Shown here: positions 1 through 23,446 of the stretch, piece by piece
How the letters are laid out: every line of letters begins with the position of its first letter
Position numbering within the stretch: position 1 is the first letter of the stretch
Origin: Cryomorphaceae bacterium
GTDB lineage: Bacteria > Bacteroidota > Bacteroidia > Flavobacteriales_D > SKUL01
Assembly (NCBI GenBank): GCA_007695365.1
Contig: REDV01000066.1
Location: 1 to 61,740, forward strand
DNA length: 61,740 nucleotides
Direction of reading: 5' to 3'
Program-made: the position numbers and the translations under genes
The notes under the pieces: model-generated
What the model was told of the DNA's origin: nothing
The model's database searches: none
What the model saw: only the letters and a program-made list of their open reading frames with translations

Positions 1-169
1 GATTTACGACATCAACGGACAGTTGATCCAGAATGAAGGATTTGGCCACGTGGGCGACAGCGTAAGCCGACTGATTCACTTCAACAAGAACCTCGCTACA
101 GGAATGTACATGGTTCACATCGTTGTGGATGGCGAGCGCTTTGCTACCGAGCGACTGATTGTGATGTAA
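1..169 (+). CDS. T9SS C-terminal sorting domain protein, 3' fragment
   Basis: The reading frame enters from the left edge (first whole codon at base 2) and ends at TAA 167-169, leaving 55 residues. The visible piece has the pattern of a type A T9SS C-terminal sorting domain: IYDINGQLI near its start, then a turn motif LATGMYMVHI and an ending ERLIVM. Such domains direct proteins through the type IX secretion system to the cell surface and are then removed. The functional part of the protein lies outside the window, so nothing can be said of its activity. A terminator follows at 231-259. Confidence 0.75.
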   Translation, partial: IYDINGQLIQNEGFGHVGDSVSRLIHFNKNLATGMYMVHIVVDGERFATERLIVM

Positions 170-230
170 TCTACAAACCTGACAGCGTCCGGAGAGGATC
201 TGTCAGCGTTTGTTGAAACCAATAGAGAAG

Positions 231-259
231 CCCCCGGCGAGCAATCGTTGGGGGTTTTT
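231..259 (+). terminator. Rho-independent terminator with GCAA tetraloop
   Basis: CCCCCGGCGA (231-240) pairs with TCGTTGGGGG (245-254) around a GCAA loop, using two G-U pairs, and is followed by TTTTT. The GNRA-type loop should make the hairpin stable. It ends the transcript of the left-edge T9SS gene. Confidence 0.85.
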
Positions 260-334
260 CATGCGTAACACTTTGCGAGCAATAACCGTTGTAATAACTT
301 GTTATCCACGGAAAAATAACCTAACTTGGCCGAC

Positions 335-14377: not shown

Positions 14378-15235
14378 ATGCCTGTTAAAATCAGATTGCA
14401 AAGACACGGAAAGAAAGGACGTCCTTTTTTCCACATTGTAGTTGCTGACGCACGAGCTCCGCGAGACGGACGCTACATTGAGCGCCTCGGAAGCTACAAC
14501 CCAAACACCAACCCTGCCACCATTGATATCGATGTGGATTCGGCAGCTTCGTGGTTACAAAAAGGTGCACAGCCCACTGATACTGCGCGTGCCATCCTTT
14601 CGTACCGCGGTGTTTTGTACCGCAACCACCTGAACAGAGGTGTACTGAAAGGTGCACTTAGTCAGGAGGAAGCCGACAAGAAATTCGATGCCTGGGTGAA
14701 TGAAAAGGAATCGAAAATCCAGGCCAAGATTGACCGTCTTGCCAACGAAAGCGACAGCGAGCGCAAAGCCCGCCTTGCTGCCGAGGCAGAGGCCAATCAG
14801 AAACGCGCAGATGAAATCGCTGCCAAACAAGCACCTCCCGCTGAGGAAGCCCCTGAAGCAGATGCTGCCCCTGAAGCTCCCGAAGCAGTTGCCGAGGCTC
14901 CCGTAGCCGAGGAAGCTCCTGCCGCTGAAGCTGCTCCCGTAGTTGAAGAGAAAGCCGAGGAAGCTACTGCTGCGGAGGAGAAAGCTGAAGCTGCTCCCGC
15001 AGTTGAAGAGAAAGCCGAGGAAGCTACTGCTGTGGAGGAGAAAGCTGAAGCTGCTCCCGCAGTTGAAGAAAAAGCTGAGGAAGCACCTGCTGCTGAAGAA
15101 AAAGCGGAAGAGGCGCCTGCGGCTGAGGAGAAAAAAGAAGAAGCTCCTGCTGCCGAGGAAAAGAAAGAAGAGGCTCCTGCTGAAGAAGCTCCCAAAGCCG
15201 AAGCAGCTGAAGACAAGGAAGAGAAAAAAGACTAA
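14378..15235 (+). CDS. rpsP: 30S ribosomal protein S16 with long Ala/Glu/Lys-rich tail
   Basis: The 285-residue product has a normal S16 core in residues 1-90 (MPVKIRLQRHGKKGRPFFHI, YIERLGSYNP). A charged helical segment follows (KKFDAWVNEKESK...ARLAAEAEA), then from about 145 a tail composed almost only of Ala, Glu, Pro, Lys and Val. S16 is usually 80-90 residues and reaches 150-200 in many Bacteroidota, so this tail is extreme. It is partly built by a 60-bp tandem duplication (14941-15060). S16 helps assemble the small subunit; the tail should extend from the body of the 30S. It leads the operon with rimM and the trmN6-like gene. Confidence 0.93.
   Translation: MPVKIRLQRHGKKGRPFFHIVVADARAPRDGRYIERLGSYNPNTNPATIDIDVDSAASWLQKGAQPTDTARAILSYRGVLYRNHLNRGVLKGALSQEEADKKFDAWVNEKESKIQAKIDRLANESDSERKARLAAEAEANQKRADEIAAKQAPPAEEAPEADAAPEAPEAVAEAPVAEEAPAAEAAPVVEEKAEEATAAEEKAEAAPAVEEKAEEATAVEEKAEAAPAVEEKAEEAPAAEEKAEEAPAAEEKKEEAPAAEEKKEEAPAEEAPKAEAAEDKEEKKD
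14941..15180 (+). repeat. 60-bp tandem repeat inside rpsP
   Basis: Bases 14941-15000 and 15001-15060 are identical except for one base (C to T at unit position 33). Two further, diverged 60-base units follow at 15061-15120 and 15121-15180. Each unit encodes 20 residues of the form EEKAEEATAAEEKAEAAPAV. The near identity points to a recent duplication or gene conversion. Confidence 0.9.
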
Positions 15236-17433: not shown

Positions 17434-18780
17434 CTACACAAAGTTTGGTGGAACCTCTTTCTCAACGAAACTCATCCCCAAGCTTTCCAGTTCTTTAAGA
17501 ACGGGTATGTATATCTCCGGTTGAATCGGAATCAATGCCCCCCTCAAGTTGACGTTTCCGTTCAGGATGTGTCTTGCCGCAATACCAATAGGCAGACCTA
17601 CAGTTTTGGACATTGCCGTATGGGTTTGATCCTCACCCAGCACAACGAGCGATGAATTGAACTCGCGCTTTTCACCTCCATCAAGGAAACCTACCTTGTG
17701 CCACATCACAATCATGTCGCGGTCACCCTCCTCCAGGCTCATCTTCTCTTCCATTCTTTTCTGGAGAATTTGTGCGGGAGTGGCGGCTTCCAAACCAATG
17801 GGATCATTTTCAAAAAGCCCGAGCCACTGCAGTAATTCCATGGCGGGGTCATCGTGTTCCATTTTGAGGTAGGCTCTTAGTTTAAGCTCAACCGAATCGT
17901 AAGGGTTGTAAGCTAAAAATGAGTTGATAAACTGTCGATACGTCATGGATGCAACATCCTCCATAACATAACTGTCATCGGTTGCCCCAAGCTGTACCAA
18001 CACATTCCAGGCGCGGCAAAAACCCGGTCTTCGCAGCGTTCCCCGATAAATGGTGGGCACCTCCTTCAGTCCATACGATTCACGGTATTTCAAAGAATCG
18101 CGGTTGGCATAACCCTCAAACCTACCGAACCCCTCAATATCAATCAGCTCTGTACGACTAAAGAGCTTGTGGTAGGGGATGTACTTAAATCTCCCTCCGT
18201 GCTTGAACTGCACGACTCCACCTTGCCCGGCCACAACCACATTTCTGGGGTTCCAGGTAAATTTATATCCCCACGGATTATTGTCACTTTCAGGAGCGAT
18301 GAGACCGCCTGTAAACGACTCAAAGCACTTTATATCACCGCCCTTCTCGCGAATTTCGTTCAGAAGTTTCATAGCTGAGAGGTGGTCAATGCCGGGGTCC
18401 AGCCCTATCTCATTCAAGGCGATCAAGCCTTTTTCTCTGAATGGCGCATCCAGCGCCTCTATCTCTTTGGTGATGTATGACGGAGTGATTACGTGCTTGC
18501 CAAACTCGAGGCAATCCCTCACCACTTCAAGATGCATGGATGCCGGAAGCATAGAAATCACCACGTCGTGACTGCTGATCAGTTTCCGCCTCAGCTCTTC
18601 ATTTCTTGCATCAAACAGGGCGGCAGTACCTCTATCATGTCCGGCCACCTTACGTCTGGCCAATTGCTCGTCCAAATCACACACAGTAAGCTGCCAATCC
18701 TCAGCCTGCGCATTGCCAAGCATATACTTTATCAATGTTGAAGATGAGCGCCCCGCTCCGATGATCAAAACTTTCCTCAT
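17434..18780 (-). CDS. Saccharopine dehydrogenase family protein
   Basis: The 448-residue protein opens with a Rossmann dinucleotide motif VLIIGAGRSSSTLIKYM and continues with HDVVISMLPASMHLEVV and GLDPGIDHLSAMKLL. The saccharopine dehydrogenase C-terminal catalytic domain follows (FESFTGGLIAPESDNNPWGYKF). This matches Lys9-type enzymes and the dehydrogenase half of AASS, which interconvert saccharopine with glutamate and aminoadipate semialdehyde. A role in lysine catabolism is likely; the lysine-ketoglutarate reductase partner is not adjacent. The length fits a single-function enzyme. A -7 box lies 20-30 bases upstream. Confidence 0.88.
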   Translation of the reverse strand: MRKVLIIGAGRSSSTLIKYMLGNAQAEDWQLTVCDLDEQLARRKVAGHDRGTAALFDARNEELRRKLISSHDVVISMLPASMHLEVVRDCLEFGKHVITPSYITKEIEALDAPFREKGLIALNEIGLDPGIDHLSAMKLLNEIREKGGDIKCFESFTGGLIAPESDNNPWGYKFTWNPRNVVVAGQGGVVQFKHGGRFKYIPYHKLFSRTELIDIEGFGRFEGYANRDSLKYRESYGLKEVPTIYRGTLRRPGFCRAWNVLVQLGATDDSYVMEDVASMTYRQFINSFLAYNPYDSVELKLRAYLKMEHDDPAMELLQWLGLFENDPIGLEAATPAQILQKRMEEKMSLEEGDRDMIVMWHKVGFLDGGEKREFNSSLVVLGEDQTHTAMSKTVGLPIGIAARHILNGNVNLRGALIPIQPEIYIPVLKELESLGMSFVEKEVPPNFV

Positions 18781-18934: not shown

Positions 18935-19948
18935 ATGAAAACGCTGACCTTCCTCTTTTCATTTATCGCGCTGTCCTTTAGTGCTTTGAGCCAGCAAACT
19001 ACCAATCTCGTGATATTCTCAGACCAGGGAGAGCCATTCTACGCGTTCGTTAACAGCGTAAAGCAGAATGAAAATGCCATGAGCAATGTAAAAATCACCG
19101 ATTTACCGAGCGAAATGGCACGGATTAGAATTGTATTTGAAGATGAGAGCCTGGGCACATTGGATCGCAACTTCATGTTGCAATTCGGGCATGAAATTAC
19201 CGCCCGAATCATGCAAAACCGCAAAGGCCAATATGTACTTCGTCCTTTTGGCGAGCCTGTTCCTATTTCAGCAGCGCCGGTGGTAGCAGACCAGCCTGTG
19301 ATTATCTACCACGCCGAACCGGCCACTGCGGAACCCACTCCTGCCCGTCCTACAAACATCCCTGTTGCCGACGAGGAAGTAGTTCAAACCACAGTTGTGG
19401 TTACCGAGGGTGAACGCCCCGCTCGCCCGGCCGGCCAGGGTGCCTCCATCGGAATCAATGTGGATGGAGTTGGAATTTCCATGGATGTGAACATTCACGA
19501 TGAAACCGGCAGTATGAGTAGCACGACTACCACTACTACCACTACTACCACCCGTCAGCCCGCAACCCGCCCTCAACCCGTAGACCCTGTCGTGGTTGAA
19601 GAAGAGGTAGTTGAACCCCTCGTTCCGGGTTACAGCGGTCCTATAGGTTGCTCAGGTTTTTTGATGTCCGACAGCCAGTTTGAACAAGCCAAGAAAACCA
19701 TCAGCAACCAGACTTTTGAAGACAACAAAATCACCGTTGCCAAGCAAATCTCTGCCAGCAACTGCCTCACAACTTCTCAGGTGAAAGAACTGCTCCCCCT
19801 CTTCACCTTTGAAGACAGCAAGTTGGATTTTGCGAAGCACGCTTACGATCGCACTCACGACATCGGGAACTACTGGATGCTGAACGACAGCTTCACTTTT
19901 TCGTCCAGCGTGGATGATTTAAACCGATTTATCCAGTCTCGCAGATAA
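18935..19948 (+). CDS. Secreted DUF4476 protein
   Basis: The 337-residue protein starts at ATG 18935 with a signal peptide (MKTLTFLFSFIALSFSALSQ); a longer frame from 18872 lacks support. An N-terminal beta domain (about 22-105) is followed by a Pro/Val/Thr-rich linker containing a run of about ten Thr encoded by an ACT/ACC microsatellite (19526-19553). A C-terminal DUF4476 helical domain lies at about 240-337 (CSGFLMSDSQFEQAKKTI, ASNCLTTSQVKELLPLF). DUF4476 is frequent in Bacteroidota with no known role. It is the first gene of a four-gene unit with three lipoproteins, nine bases before the next start. Confidence 0.82.
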   Translation: MKTLTFLFSFIALSFSALSQQTTNLVIFSDQGEPFYAFVNSVKQNENAMSNVKITDLPSEMARIRIVFEDESLGTLDRNFMLQFGHEITARIMQNRKGQYVLRPFGEPVPISAAPVVADQPVIIYHAEPATAEPTPARPTNIPVADEEVVQTTVVVTEGERPARPAGQGASIGINVDGVGISMDVNIHDETGSMSSTTTTTTTTTTRQPATRPQPVDPVVVEEEVVEPLVPGYSGPIGCSGFLMSDSQFEQAKKTISNQTFEDNKITVAKQISASNCLTTSQVKELLPLFTFEDSKLDFAKHAYDRTHDIGNYWMLNDSFTFSSSVDDLNRFIQSRR

Positions 19949-19957
19949 CACCACAAT

Positions 19958-21325
19958 TTGAAAAGCCTAAGCTACATAGTAACCCTTTTTGCCATTGTTG
20001 TCCTGTTGCCGGGCTGCGGAGGTGCCCAGTCATTAGCCAAGCGCGGCGACAGGATGAATGCTGCCGGTCTTTACACCGAAGCTGCTGACTTTTACTTTCA
20101 GGCGCTTCAGCGAAACAGAAACAACGTTCGGGCCCGAATAGGCATGTCGCAAACAGGTCAAAAGGTTTTGAACGACAGGCTGGATCGTTTCAGCAGAAGC
20201 AACAAATCCGGCGACCTGCATCAAGCAGTAAGGCAATACCGTGAAGCCCAAGCCTATCAGACCCAATTACGGCGGGTTGGTGTGGAGGTAAATATCCCCG
20301 AATTTTTTACCCAGGACTACGAAAGGAGCAAAGAAATTGTGCTGGAAGAACTTTATGAAGAAGCCGAAGAGTTACTTGCTGAGCAGCGCTTTGAAGATGC
20401 TAAAGCAAAGTTTGAAGAAGTAAAGGCTCTTGACCCAAACTTCCGGGATGCACGTGACCTGGCCGACAAAGCATTTAGCAAGCCCCTTTACATTCAGGGG
20501 AAAACAGCTTTGGACAACGGCGACTATCGCAAGGCACACGGATTTTTTCGGCAAATTCTGGATCGCACTCCCAACTTCAAAGACACTCGTGAACTTCAGC
20601 GGGAAGCGCTGGAAAAAGGGCGCATCGTGGTTGCCCTTGTTCCGTTTGAGAACGTATCGAACGAAGCCAATGTAGAAAAGAGAGTGAGTGCATACCTGCT
20701 TGATGAACTCTCGCGTTTACCAGATCCCTTTTTGCGCTTTGTGGATCGCAGTGATATGGAAAGGCTTATTGAGGAACAACAGTTAAGCCTTTCAGGACTG
20801 TTTAATGAAGAAACAGCTATTCGGGTAGGTGAACTGGCAGGCGCCAAGGCCATTATAACCGGTAAAGTATTAGACTACAGGGTTCAGGAGGGTCGTTTAC
20901 AGCACACTCGCAGAAATGGGTTTGAGGGATTTCAAGTGCAACGCAAAAGTGCAGAAACAGGACAGACCTACTTCGAAACCCGATACCGCCCTGTGCAATA
21001 CAGCGAGTACACCGGAAGCAATTCCGTACATCTTACCTTTCAGTATAAGCTGCTTTCGCTGGAATCCGGTGAAGTGCTTTCCTCCCGAATTATTGATCGT
21101 GAATCTCGGGATGCCATTCACTTTGCCGACTTCGACGGAAATGCAGCCATGCTCTTCCCAGCCAGTGGAAATGTGCGCAACCCGGCTCCTGCTGCCAAAC
21201 GCCAGTTGGATGGATTGTTGCGGGCGCGCAGAACCATGAAATCAGCCACTGAACTTTCGAATGCACTATTCAACGACATCTCCAATCAGATCAGTCGTGA
21301 AGTAGCAACACAGATGTCAAAGTGA
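19958..21325 (+). CDS. CsgG-like lipoprotein with TPR region
   Basis: The 455-residue protein starts with TTG at 19958. That choice is forced by the lipoprotein signal peptide beginning there (MKSLSYIVTLFAIVVLLPGC, Cys20). Residues 25-215 are TPR-like helices (YTEAADFYFQALQRN, DYRKAHGFFRQIL). Residues about 220-310 match the CsgG core: VALVPFENVSNE, FVDRSDMERLIEEQQLSLSG and IRVGELAGAKAIITGKV. CsgG family proteins form outer-membrane pores or, as LpoB-like forms, activate penicillin-binding proteins. No curli genes lie nearby. Its stop shares one base with the next ATG. Confidence 0.82.
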   Translation: MKSLSYIVTLFAIVVLLPGCGGAQSLAKRGDRMNAAGLYTEAADFYFQALQRNRNNVRARIGMSQTGQKVLNDRLDRFSRSNKSGDLHQAVRQYREAQAYQTQLRRVGVEVNIPEFFTQDYERSKEIVLEELYEEAEELLAEQRFEDAKAKFEEVKALDPNFRDARDLADKAFSKPLYIQGKTALDNGDYRKAHGFFRQILDRTPNFKDTRELQREALEKGRIVVALVPFENVSNEANVEKRVSAYLLDELSRLPDPFLRFVDRSDMERLIEEQQLSLSGLFNEETAIRVGELAGAKAIITGKVLDYRVQEGRLQHTRRNGFEGFQVQRKSAETGQTYFETRYRPVQYSEYTGSNSVHLTFQYKLLSLESGEVLSSRIIDRESRDAIHFADFDGNAAMLFPASGNVRNPAPAAKRQLDGLLRARRTMKSATELSNALFNDISNQISREVATQMSK

Positions 21326-22731
21326 TGCGCACCACTCACGTATGGCTCGTTCTTCCAACCATTTTATTGTTGATGTTGGGAGCTGGCTGCTCAGGCAAAA
21401 AGCAAGCGGCCCAGGAGTCTGTTTCTGCCGCAGAAGCAAACCCCCGCCCCCACTGGGTGGATCGCAAACCTACTTCCTCCGTGTTCTTTCACGGCATAGG
21501 TGTTGCCACCAGACGACCCAACAGCACCGATCACATTGAAACGGCACGTAACCTGGCATTAAACGACCTTGCCTCTGAGATACAAATTAACGTATCATCC
21601 AATTCTATCCTGTACACCCTGGAGCGCGACTACAAGTTCCAATCTGAATTTACCGAAACCATTCGAACAAGCACCAACCTCAATCTGGAAGGTTATGAAC
21701 TGGTTGACACCTGGGAATCCAATGGGCAGTACTGGGTGTATTATCGTCTCAACAGATCTGAATTCTATGCCCGCAAGGAAGCGGAGAAACGCGCCGTACT
21801 TAACAATGCTGCCGATTTTTACCGAAACGGAAGAACGGCTTGGCAAAATCAACAGGTAGCCTCTGCGTTCGATTTGCAGGTACGCGCTCTTTCAATCATG
21901 AAACCCTATTGGGCCGAAAGCAACGAGTATGATTTAGACGGAAGAACAGTGCTGCTTGACAATGCCATACTTCAGGAAATTCAGGACATGGCCAACCATA
22001 TCAATCTGGTAGCCCAACCCGCGCGGGTGGTGCTTAACCTGAGCAATGGGTTTAGCCAACAATGTGTTATTACTGCAAGCGACAGAATCACCGGCAGCAT
22101 GCTCGGTGGAGTACCTGTTCGGTACCAATACAGAGCAAGTTCAGGAATCGTAAGAGACCTACAAAACACTGCTTCAAACGGAACCCTCATTGTTCCCATT
22201 AAAAACCCAGAGTTGACCACCACGTACAATGAACTTAGGGCACAAATTGAGCTGGAGCAATTATTTGACCGGCGCGCTCTGGACCGGGATATGCTCAGGT
22301 TGGTTCGCAATCTGCAAACCCCTGACCTCAAGGTGCAAATTGAGTTGGAAAGACCTGTGTTTTTCATCGAGAGTAACGAGCAAAACCTCAACAACCGCGA
22401 ACTGCTTTCAAGATTGCGCGACCATTTCAGTAATGAGGTGATTAAAAACGGGCTACCTGTTTCTCAAAACCGCAATCAGGCGGATATTCTGGTATCCATT
22501 CATGCGCGCACGCGAAAAGGCGGTGAAACCAATGGCTTTGCAGTAGCTTTTTTGGATATGTCGCTGCGCCTTACTGATTTGGCTGGCAACAAGGTGTATT
22601 ACGAAGAATCCATGAAAGATATAAGAGGTGTAAGCAACACGCATGAAAGGGCGGGTTTTACTGCTTTTGACCGCGGACAGGAGAGGATAGATCGCGCCTT
22701 TATGCAGCGAGTTTTGAATACGATAATGTAA
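21325..22731 (+). CDS. LPP20-family lipoprotein, long form
   Basis: The 468-residue protein begins at ATG 21325, sharing the A of the preceding TGA. The lipobox is MLGAGCSG (Cys22). Residues about 40-150 look like an LPP20 domain: PHWVDRKP, FHGIGVA, ETARNLALNDLASEIQ, and YWVYYRLN. A middle beta region follows, and a C-terminal domain (about 340-468; ADILVSIHARTRKGG, SLRLTDLAGNKVYYEES) recalls LpoB/CsgG-associated folds. LPP20 proteins include outer-membrane lipoproteins such as FlgP. The operon context suggests a shared envelope assembly, but no flagellar genes are present. Confidence 0.75.
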   Translation: MRTTHVWLVLPTILLLMLGAGCSGKKQAAQESVSAAEANPRPHWVDRKPTSSVFFHGIGVATRRPNSTDHIETARNLALNDLASEIQINVSSNSILYTLERDYKFQSEFTETIRTSTNLNLEGYELVDTWESNGQYWVYYRLNRSEFYARKEAEKRAVLNNAADFYRNGRTAWQNQQVASAFDLQVRALSIMKPYWAESNEYDLDGRTVLLDNAILQEIQDMANHINLVAQPARVVLNLSNGFSQQCVITASDRITGSMLGGVPVRYQYRASSGIVRDLQNTASNGTLIVPIKNPELTTTYNELRAQIELEQLFDRRALDRDMLRLVRNLQTPDLKVQIELERPVFFIESNEQNLNNRELLSRLRDHFSNEVIKNGLPVSQNRNQADILVSIHARTRKGGETNGFAVAFLDMSLRLTDLAGNKVYYEESMKDIRGVSNTHERAGFTAFDRGQERIDRAFMQRVLNTIM

Positions 22732-22792
22732 GAAATAACTATTTTGGCACAGTTTGTGAAAAACCCTTGACAAATCATAAAAAACGGAAATC

Positions 22793-23398
22793 ATGAAAGC
22801 TCTAATCAACCCCCGTGTATTTACCATGAGTCTTCTGGCTCTGGGGCTGGCCATCGGCTCAACCAGCTGCGGAAAGAAAAAGAAAGCCGCACAACCAGGA
22901 CCTGCCCCTACAGGAGAAGTTCGTATCACTCAGTACTGTGCCGGACCGGATTACTTTAGCGACAGCAAGTTCTTCCGCGCCAATAACCTCGGTGAAAGCA
23001 TGGATCAGGCAACGGCCAAGCGACGTGCCTATACCAACGCAAGAGCAGATCTCGCGTCAGCTATTAACACCACCGTGAAACGTGTAATTGATGATTACGT
23101 GCTGACCCGCGAGTTCAACAACCGAGAGGAAATTGAAGAGCGATACGAAGCCCTTACCCGAGAGGTAGTTGACCAGCAGCTCAATGGAATCCGCACCATT
23201 TGCGAAGAAGTGGTTCGGGTAACTGAAAACGGTAACTTCAAGTACTACGTAGCCATCGAGCTGAGTGGAGAAGAGTTGGCCAACGCCATCAACCAGGGCA
23301 TCAGCCGCGACGAGCGTCTGCGCATTGACTACGACTACGAGCGTTTCAAAGAAACCTTCGACAAGGAGATGGAGCGCATGGCCAGAGAGCGAAACTAA
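22793..23398 (+). CDS. LPP20-like lipoprotein, short form
   Basis: The 201-residue lipoprotein has a lipobox ending GSTSCGKKK (Cys26), then an LPP20-like domain (QATAKRRAYTNARADLASAI, FKYYVAIELSGEELANAI). Its C-terminus is a charged helix (YDYERFKETFDKEMERMAR). It is 61 bases downstream of the long LPP20 gene and followed by a strong terminator, so it closes the unit. The similarity in layout to the preceding protein suggests that the two are paralogues that may assemble together. Confidence 0.75.
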   Translation: MKALINPRVFTMSLLALGLAIGSTSCGKKKKAAQPGPAPTGEVRITQYCAGPDYFSDSKFFRANNLGESMDQATAKRRAYTNARADLASAINTTVKRVIDDYVLTREFNNREEIEERYEALTREVVDQQLNGIRTICEEVVRVTENGNFKYYVAIELSGEELANAINQGISRDERLRIDYDYERFKETFDKEMERMARERN

Positions 23399-23415
23399 CG
23401 ACTCCAAGCATACTG

Positions 23416-23446
23416 AAAACCGCCCCAATCAAGGGGCGGTTTTTTT
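23416..23446 (+). terminator. Terminator of the DUF4476-CsgG-LPP20 unit
   Basis: CCGCCCC (23420-23426), loop AATCAA, GGGGCGG (23433-23439), then seven T residues. Flanking AAAA and TTTT extend the stem. Confidence 0.9.

Follow-up and report, generated by a model that had tools for sequence, protein, structure and literature searches.

The Vibrio H-ring is composed of FlgO, FlgP and FlgT, as stated in excerpts of PMC6375700. According to excerpts of PMC3948606, the genes flgP, flgO and flgT are neighbours in V. fischeri (VF_1883-1885) and all of them are required for normal flagella. An SHS2-like fold is attributed in common to FlgP, Lpp20 and FlgT in excerpts of PMC12222027.

Here we report on an operon in a Cryomorphaceae genome (GCA_007695365.1, contig REDV01000066.1), where the analysed stretch of 61,740 nucleotides is called the window. 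Three of its genes represent a conserved trio of outer-membrane lipoproteins in many non-flagellated Bacteroidota, which may assemble beneath the outer membrane into a ring or scaffold of a non-flagellar kind. A published description of this cassette was not found in our literature search.

The operon and its products

The operon comprises the following features:

18935..19948, plus strand: DUF4476 protein, exported, not lipidated
19958..21325, plus strand: TPR and CsgG-fold lipoprotein (CsgG-like), TTG start, 455 aa, mature from C20
21325..22731, plus strand: LPPa, FlgT-like lipoprotein, 468 aa, mature from C22
22793..23398, plus strand: LPPb, short LPP20-like lipoprotein, 201 aa
23415..23446, plus strand: intrinsic terminator at the operon end, stem of 12 bp, loop of 6 nt, T-rich tail

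A preliminary description of this locus had reported a 9-base gap, a 1-base overlap and a 61-base gap between the genes, and all three spacings match the ORF coordinates; the ATG of LPPa begins on the final base of the TGA of the CsgG-like gene. It had also regarded all four proteins as exported, three of them with lipoboxes, and this view was substantiated: the DUF4476 protein shows an ordinary signal peptide, as judged by eye, while the lipobox Cys is invariant among the relatives of the other three (CsgG-like 25/25, LPPa 25/25, LPPb 23/23). The single terminator was likewise found as a hairpin with T tract at 23415-23446 (RNA fold -21.3 kcal/mol, z -5.4). A simple terminator scan missed this hairpin, probably by letting the stem extend into the T tract, and folding settled the case.

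A surface-export signal of Bacteroidota lipoproteins is described in excerpts of PMC5080379. An adjacent acidic pair at +2 to +6 after the lipobox Cys is absent in 73/73 proteins, hence there is no sign of this signal. All four genes are under strong purifying selection; approximate dN/dS values between the window and its closest relative (L032) are 0.011 for DUF4476, 0.021 for CsgG-like, 0.038 for LPPa and 0.005 for LPPb.

Distribution and co-conservation

Conservation was followed in a sample of 80 genomes of the order and in two sets of loci, 30 order-level and 80 named ones, which overlap, since at least 11 named loci sit on the same contigs as order-level loci. All three core genes occur in the same 32/80 order genomes and none of the three in 46/80. 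Taken singly, the long CsgG-like protein (E<1e-50) was detected in 32/80, LPPb in 33/80 and LPPa in 34/80, the exceptions being one genome with LPPb and a truncated LPPa (G074) and another with a weak LPPa only (G031). In 31 of the 32 carrier genomes, LPPb immediately follows LPPa on the same contig. At the level of loci, CsgG-like, LPPa and LPPb were found together in 29/30 order-level and 44/80 named loci, and their order is constant across the trio-bearing loci with the exception of L123. A cultured species, Cryomorpha ignava (L087), is among those that carry the trio. These locus counts come from a six-frame search, because a crude ORF picker dropped genes in GC-rich loci. Moreover, the LPPb profile behind the locus scans was iterated and may have absorbed domains of LPPa; even without iteration, the profile (A3) detects LPPa at E 1e-4.

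The three genes thus form a real unit. However, it is not obligatory everywhere, as LPPa and LPPb occur without an adjacent CsgG-like gene in 27/80 named loci (4 cut by the contig end) and LPPb without the other two in 9/80 (1 cut by the contig end). A lone LPPb paralog is also encoded elsewhere in the genome of the window, where no other CsgG-domain match was found. LPPb relatives occur in only 22/296 phylum genomes. The preliminary description had supposed an assembly specific to Bacteroidota, and of 440 relatives the best 80 have titles from this phylum throughout.

The preliminary description had made its reading dependent on joint conservation of the genes in a neighbourhood search and on a CsgG core in profile searches. 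Both were found, the first in the co-occurrence and adjacency given above, the second in a window protein scoring over the cut-off and in 25/25 relatives. Its statement that curli and flagellar genes are lacking agrees with our searches as well: CsgF gave no match in the genome of the window (E. coli control positive), and Flg_bb_rod was found in 0/80 order genomes, including that of the window (4 controls positive). Taken together, co-conservation, the CsgG core and the absence of rod and CsgF genes leave the preliminary description standing on both points.

Three further links were considered and rejected. An MMPL transporter gene flanks LPPb in 6 scanned loci in two arrangements, but this transporter type is present in 80/80 order genomes and hence does not track the cassette. 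SprA of the T9SS occurs in 79/80 order genomes, which makes its presence alone uninformative. A flagellar link fails on the rod gene, found in none of the 80 genomes. As a separate observation, a T9SS sorting tail is encoded by two of the large genes that follow LPPb elsewhere among the loci.

Domains of the four proteins

The CsgG-like protein matches Pfam CsgG with E 8e-8 (32.3 bits vs a cut-off of 20.8; model positions 16-104 of 210) in addition to TPRs, and its 25/25 relatives match CsgG at E<=0.01. A sequence search of solved structures with this protein gave essentially TPR matches only. The AF2 model (pLDDT 91.5) predicts a helical TPR solenoid in mature residues 1-202, followed by a CsgG/PelC/FlgT-M-type domain in mature 203-436. 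In a second look at the Foldseek matches with VIA, the Z values of this domain tie and exclude no family: 14.3 for DUF330 (2iqi), 13.8 for PelC (5t11), 13.5 for the FlgT M domain, 13.3 for the LPHT ring chain, 13.1 for CsgG and 11.2 for TraT (9fsm).

The claim of two LPP20 genes stands for LPPa, whereas LPPb shows a weak, single LPP20-like domain and LPPa turned out to have a FlgT-like plan with an Ig-like insert. LPPa matches Pfam LPP20 with E 8e-12 (45.8 bits vs a cut-off of 25.9), as do 25/25 relatives at E<=1. Its model (AF2, pLDDT 88.6) predicts the LPP20 domain at aa 42-142, then helices, an Ig-like MG4 domain (mature 203-321) and a TolB_N/CsgG/PelC-type domain (mature 322-447). Residues 32..447 of the model align to residues 1-263 of FlgT (3w1e), i.e. 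domains N and M, with VIA Z 10.0 over 187 residues; the rmsd of 26 A indicates a two-domain match in which the relative orientation differs (flexible). With Foldseek the FlgT match is weaker (rank 43, E 2e-3). Other VIA matches of LPPa are MG4/invasin at Z ~11 and HpaA/CsgG/PelC at Z ~10. Since HpaA, CsgG and PelC match the M-type domain equally well, the term FlgT-like rests on domain order. In Pfam at E<=1, neither FlgT_N nor FlgT_M matches the window LPPa, for which LPP20 and one chance match were obtained; among the matches listed (25 of 33 families for the LPPa relatives), FlgT_N was seen for one LPPb relative (E 0.047). The models thus suggest that LPPa corresponds to the first two FlgT domains plus an inserted Ig-like (MG4) domain.

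The ring-forming beta-hairpin insert of FlgP is positioned between the SHS2 helix and the second strand. The corresponding place in LPPa, mature 71-96, is modelled with pLDDT<50 in the monomer and aligns without a large gap to Helicobacter HP1454 (4kzs), which the LPPa profile matches over the LPP20 domain (E 6e-5).

LPPb is the most conserved member (55% mean column identity, 23 relatives). Its Pfam LPP20 match (E 0.005) stays below the cut-off with 17.6 vs 25.9 bits; 19/23 relatives match LPP20 at E<=1 (best 5e-4), and hhalign of the LPPb profile (A3) with the LPPa profile (A2) gave E 1.4e-6. The sequence search against solved structures returned nothing meaningful for LPPb. Cys49 and Cys137 are invariant, which makes a disulfide between them possible.

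The DUF4476 protein consists of an N-terminal domain, a Pro/Thr-rich linker and the C-terminal DUF4476 domain (aa 244-333, Pfam E 3e-21). It had been proposed as the periplasmic partner, a view favoured by one relative in which LPP20 is fused to DUF4476 (L166). However, the gene is outside the core, as it adjoins the cassette in 17/30 order-level and 30/80 named loci, and DUF4476-related proteins occur in 49/80 order genomes, many of them without the cassette. It is a looser, optional partner of the trio. The literature found on DUF4476 concerns animal genes. The cassette offers this domain a candidate bacterial context.

A possible envelope ring or scaffold

The preliminary reading as a candidate outer-membrane complex is a fair one, with a co-conserved trio and an invariant lipid-anchor Cys. 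We consider the chances about even that the products of the cassette make up a single lipoprotein assembly, anchored in the outer membrane and facing the periplasm, with a structural ring or scaffold most likely, over a secretion pore. The lipid anchors of the three lipoproteins would sit in the inner leaflet of this membrane. The CsgG-like protein would provide a domain of a type known from ring-forming relatives, and its TPR solenoid may form a docking arm in the periplasm. LPPa would contribute LPP20, MG4 and CsgG-type domains arranged as in FlgT. LPPb would bring in additional LPP20 domains, comparable to FlgP next to FlgO and FlgT in Vibrio, and DUF4476 might act as a soluble periplasmic adaptor in part of the lineages. 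Such a scaffold would probably be analogous to FlgO/FlgP/FlgT, oligomeric and ring-like, and could serve as a brace for the outer membrane or for a machine that spans the envelope.

The main rival is a penicillin-binding protein (PBP) activator complex, in which the CsgG-like protein would be of the LpoB type, its TPR solenoid a rigid spacer through the peptidoglycan and the LPP20 proteins co-factors. LpoB does match 18/25 relatives of the CsgG-like protein at E<=0.01 (best 1e-6), and TPR domains are also present in LpoA. Nevertheless, the window protein misses the LpoB cut-off (21.4 bits vs 22.3) and scores higher for CsgG, which is matched by all relatives. Its helical arm is confidently folded in the AF2 model, where the LpoB type has a disordered tether. 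Furthermore, no constant cell-wall gene was recognised beside the cassette in the examined loci, in which most neighbours are unannotated, and we know of no Lpo system with LPP20 partners. This explanation appears rather unlikely to us.

An export or secretion pore, with a CsgG-type outer-membrane channel and LPPa, LPPb and DUF4476 as gate, cap or substrate adaptors, would fit the CsgG profile match. The model also has long strands (mature 296-311, 318-348, 354-372) at the place of the CsgG membrane hairpins, and VIA aligns 174-181 of its residues to CsgG. However, these strands are rich in conserved charges: the best uncharged alternate-face window has a median of 0.57 (hairpin 1) and 1.57 (region 2) among 44 relatives, compared to 2.18 and 3.10 for the two hairpins of E. 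coli CsgG. The test is not clean, as the maxima of 2.72 and 2.58 show that single members approach E. coli CsgG, and CsgG-type membrane hairpins are not clear in the model. Because of these charges and with no CsgF in the genome of the window, a CsgG pore is not favoured and seems improbable.

That the genes are just co-transcribed and encode envelope lipoproteins acting independently is quite improbable. In favour of it, LPPb with or without LPPa lacks an adjacent CsgG-like gene in 36/80 named loci (5 contig-cut) and has a lone paralog; against it, the trio is near all-or-none over the 80 order genomes, LPPb follows in 31/32 carriers and the LPP20-DUF4476 fusion exists.

Returning to the ring or scaffold, a wider and more speculative possibility, which we regard as doubtful, is that Bacteroidota without flagella assemble an outer-membrane ring of their own from H-ring-type parts, namely LPP20 and TolB_N/CsgG-fold domains in proteins like FlgT, FlgO and FlgP. 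The H-ring would then be one specialised application of an envelope scaffold that is older, and the cassette a non-flagellar one. With three genes, the cassette is compact and open to genetic tests in organisms that lack flagella. Should it form rings, this would show a possible origin of flagellar accessory rings from outer-membrane scaffolds of a general kind, and the poorly known envelope of Bacteroidota would gain a structural complex.

Relation to described systems

CsgG itself shares the fold and the Pfam domain with the cassette protein, which differs by its TPR arm, its hairpins that are not clearly membrane-spanning and a genome without CsgF. In fold, the CsgG-like domain comes closest to outer-membrane lipoproteins of the DUF330 and PelC type and also matches TraT; none of them surfaced in sequence searches with the cassette proteins. 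Their known partners are other than those of the cassette. LpoB resembles 18/25 CsgG-like relatives in its Pfam domain, whereas the window protein stays below the LpoB cut-off and has a TPR arm and LPP20 partners. Among the Helicobacter LPP20 proteins (HP1454, HP1456), HP1454 is matched by the LPPa profile, but it is shorter (285-residue chain), and to our knowledge it has no CsgG-like partner.

The Vibrio H-ring differs in that none of the 80 order genomes has the flagellar rod gene and that the CsgG-like partner of the cassette bears a TPR arm. Unlike Vibrio FlgT, LPPa has a lipobox and the inserted MG4 Ig-like domain, and it has no Pfam FlgT match at E<=1; we know of no counterpart of the Ig-like insert or the TPR arm in FlgT or FlgO. 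The likeness to the H-ring lies in a gene cluster that combines an SHS2/LPP20-type protein (FlgP) with another protein of the outer membrane (FlgO), and in the arrangement of FlgT, where, as predicted for LPPa, an SHS2-type N domain is followed by a TolB_N/CsgG-type M domain.

Make-up and conservation of the operon

Re-examination of the window bore out the four reading frames, spacings, lipoboxes and closing hairpin of the preliminary description. The protein families named there were correct as well, except that the fourth protein, the short lipoprotein LPPb (22793-23398), matches LPP20 weakly, under the Pfam cut-off. Its profile is related to that of LPPa, the long LPP20 lipoprotein encoded in front of it (hhalign E 1.4e-6). 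Of the three lipoproteins, LPPb is the best conserved among relatives, with a mean column identity of 55% (23 sequences) compared to 45% and 42% for the other two. Relative to the nearest relative, dN/dS is 0.005 for LPPb, i.e. almost no amino-acid change, and 0.011-0.038 for the other three genes, all values being approximate since each difference was counted as independent. All 23 aligned LPPb sequences retain both Cys49 and Cys137, which suggests a periplasmic disulfide.

The surroundings showed further features. A gene of unknown family for approximately 450 amino acids (17434-18780, minus strand) is transcribed away from the cassette, and most order-level loci have a divergent gene that resembles it in size and place. 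The 285-aa protein encoded at 14378-15235 (plus strand) starts, by eye, like ribosomal protein S16 and continues into a long, Ala/Glu-rich repetitive C-terminal tail. An MMPL-family transporter gene adjoins LPPb in L109, L111, L114, L120, L125 and L139, in two arrangements; its link to the cassette is unproven, because every genome of the order sample has this family.

A proposed scaffold and the CsgG-like protein

We propose that the CsgG-like protein, LPPa and LPPb would form an oligomeric scaffold, anchored in the outer membrane and facing the periplasm, in which the TPR arm of the CsgG-like protein may serve as docking site and the DUF4476 protein as adaptor. The proposal is made by analogy. 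The Vibrio H-ring is described as FlgO, FlgP and FlgT (PMC6375700), which are encoded by adjacent genes in V. fischeri, where loss of any one leaves most cells aflagellate (PMC3948606); FlgP, FlgT and Lpp20 have an SHS2-like fold in common (PMC12222027), and an H. pylori lipoprotein from the flgP operon is required for the outer-membrane barrier during flagellar rotation (PMC11756786).

The model of the CsgG-like protein (mean pLDDT 91.5, pTM 0.68) begins with an arm made up entirely of helices (mature residues 1-202, TPR in Pfam), to which an alpha/beta domain with long strands is joined. With VIA-align, this domain was superimposed on DUF330 (Z 14.3, rmsd 3.1, 127 residues aligned), PelC (13.8, 2.3, 118), the FlgT M domain (13.5, 3.3, 134), an LPHT-ring chain (13.3, 3.5, 132), CsgG (13.1, 5.4, 174) and TraT (11.2, 4.9, 137). 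Structure titles among the matches include a PelC dodecamer and a TraT decamer, and CsgG is a ring. The strongest alternative to a scaffold is an Lpo-type activator of peptidoglycan synthesis, as LpoB comes second to CsgG among the related domain matches (18/25 CsgG-like relatives). A pore is less likely. The CsgG barrel is built from two amphipathic hairpins, and at these positions the strands of the CsgG-like protein are long and carry conserved charges. Its best charge-free face of alternate residues has medians, over 44 relatives, of 0.57 (hairpin 1) and 1.57 (region 2), compared to 2.18 and 3.10 in E. coli CsgG at what we take to be its hairpin positions. The difference argues against a CsgG-type barrel but is not proof, because some individual members reach 2.7. 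Regarding the membrane side of the scaffold, an adjacent acidic pair at +2..+6 occurs in 0/73 aligned cassette lipoproteins, which favours a periplasmic position, since acidic residues after the lipid cysteine are a signal type sending Bacteroidota lipoproteins to the surface (PMC5080379).

Co-inheritance of the three lipoprotein genes

Presence was counted across 80 genomes of the order, taken as a fixed sample. At E<1e-50, the long CsgG-like protein occurs in 32/80 (35 if weak domain matches at E<=1e-3 are counted), LPPb in 33/80 and LPPa in 34/80; an identical set of 32/80 genomes has all three, and 46/80 have none. In one genome (G074), LPPb is accompanied by a truncated LPPa; another (G031) has a weak LPPa only. 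LPPb lies directly behind the CsgG-like and LPPa genes on one contig in 31 of the 32 carriers; in G028 it is on a separate contig. Such joint presence and adjacency make simple co-transcription a less likely explanation. The carrier pattern largely follows family lines and thus represents few independent events. A flagellar rod gene was found in 0/80 and the T9SS marker SprA in 79/80 of these genomes; hence, neither the flagellum nor T9SS accounts for the distribution of the cassette.

Among 30 order-level loci of the main CsgG type (L032-L061), the complete ordered set of four is present in 17, the three lipoprotein genes in 12 and CsgG plus LPPa in 1. In 80 named Bacteroidota loci anchored on LPPb (the best 80 of 440, the window itself excluded, at least 11 of them on contigs identical, by length, to those of order-level loci), all four genes were found in 30 and three in 14 (LPPb first in L123). 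A further 27 have LPPa and LPPb, 4 of these being truncated by the contig end on the upstream side, and 9 have only LPPb (1 contig-cut). Phylum-wide, LPPb relatives occur in 22/296 genomes, so the cassette characterises certain lineages, not the phylum as a whole.

Ten other loci (L062-L071) encode more distant TPR+CsgG-like or CsgG-domain proteins with no LPP20 genes adjoining, and such proteins were found in several genomes that also have the main type. In L062, a glutathione-peroxidase gene is the neighbour.

DUF4476 and other LPP20 architectures

The DUF4476 gene often, though not always, adjoins the cassette, and its relatives (E<=1e-10) are present in 49/80 order genomes, many of them without the cassette. 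Four further genes are relevant here:

L166:4079-5578, minus strand, genome G074: natural LPP20-DUF4476 fusion, lipoprotein-like, 499 aa (LPP20 30-130, DUF4476 410-497)
L152:3719-4306, plus strand, window's own genome, contig C131: second, solitary LPPb-like lipoprotein, scoring 95 bits against the LPPb profile
L167:3318-5228, plus strand, genome G026: LPP20-ARPP-1 fusion, 636 aa, a second LPPa-like protein of this genome
L168:1996-3480, minus strand, window's own genome, contig C95: protein of 494 aa whose N-terminus weakly resembles LPP20, encoded in one gene row together with a PEGA/Fib_succ_major protein

The LPP20-DUF4476 fusion gene adjoins LPPb, its genome lacks the long CsgG-like protein, and the fusion suggests that both domains work together. 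The solitary LPPb-like protein had no Pfam match at E<=0.05; of the 33 order genomes with LPPb, approximately 25 have such a second copy. The row in L168 is possibly another LPP20-based envelope gene set.

LPPa and its likeness to FlgT

The LPPa model (pLDDT 88.6, pTM 0.76) has, in this order, an LPP20 domain, helices, an Ig-like domain (203-321) and a C-terminal domain (322-447). The Ig-like domain resembles complement/alpha-2-macroglobulin MG domains and invasin (Z ~11), the C-terminal domain HpaA (Z 10.7), CsgG (10.4) and PelC (10.3). In the SHS2-like family, ring formation reportedly goes with an insert between the helix and the second strand (PMC12222027). Mature residues 71-96, the sole poorly defined part of the LPP20 domain, correspond to this site. 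Their poor definition in the model would fit a segment that needs the oligomer in order to fold, but it is not decisive, because the stretch aligns to HP1454 with no large gap.

In the open-licence PMC literature, LPP20 was not found together with CsgG, DUF4476 appeared in one animal paper only, and papers on FlgP, FlgT, LpoB and Bacteroidetes contained no such cassette in their titles and abstract starts; within this scope, all three results are weak evidence of absence. The parts of the cassette belong to known families, and their conserved non-flagellar combination with a FlgT-like plan appears to be undescribed. Among the chains listed, those whose alignments reach from one end of the LPPa model to the other are FlgT (3w1e) and the LPHT-ring chain 8z5n. 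Residues 32..447 align to 1..263 of FlgT with Z 10.0 over 187 residues, and the rmsd of 26 means that the two domains are differently placed relative to each other. As predicted, LPPa would thus have the first two domains of FlgT in the same order, plus an inserted Ig-like domain.
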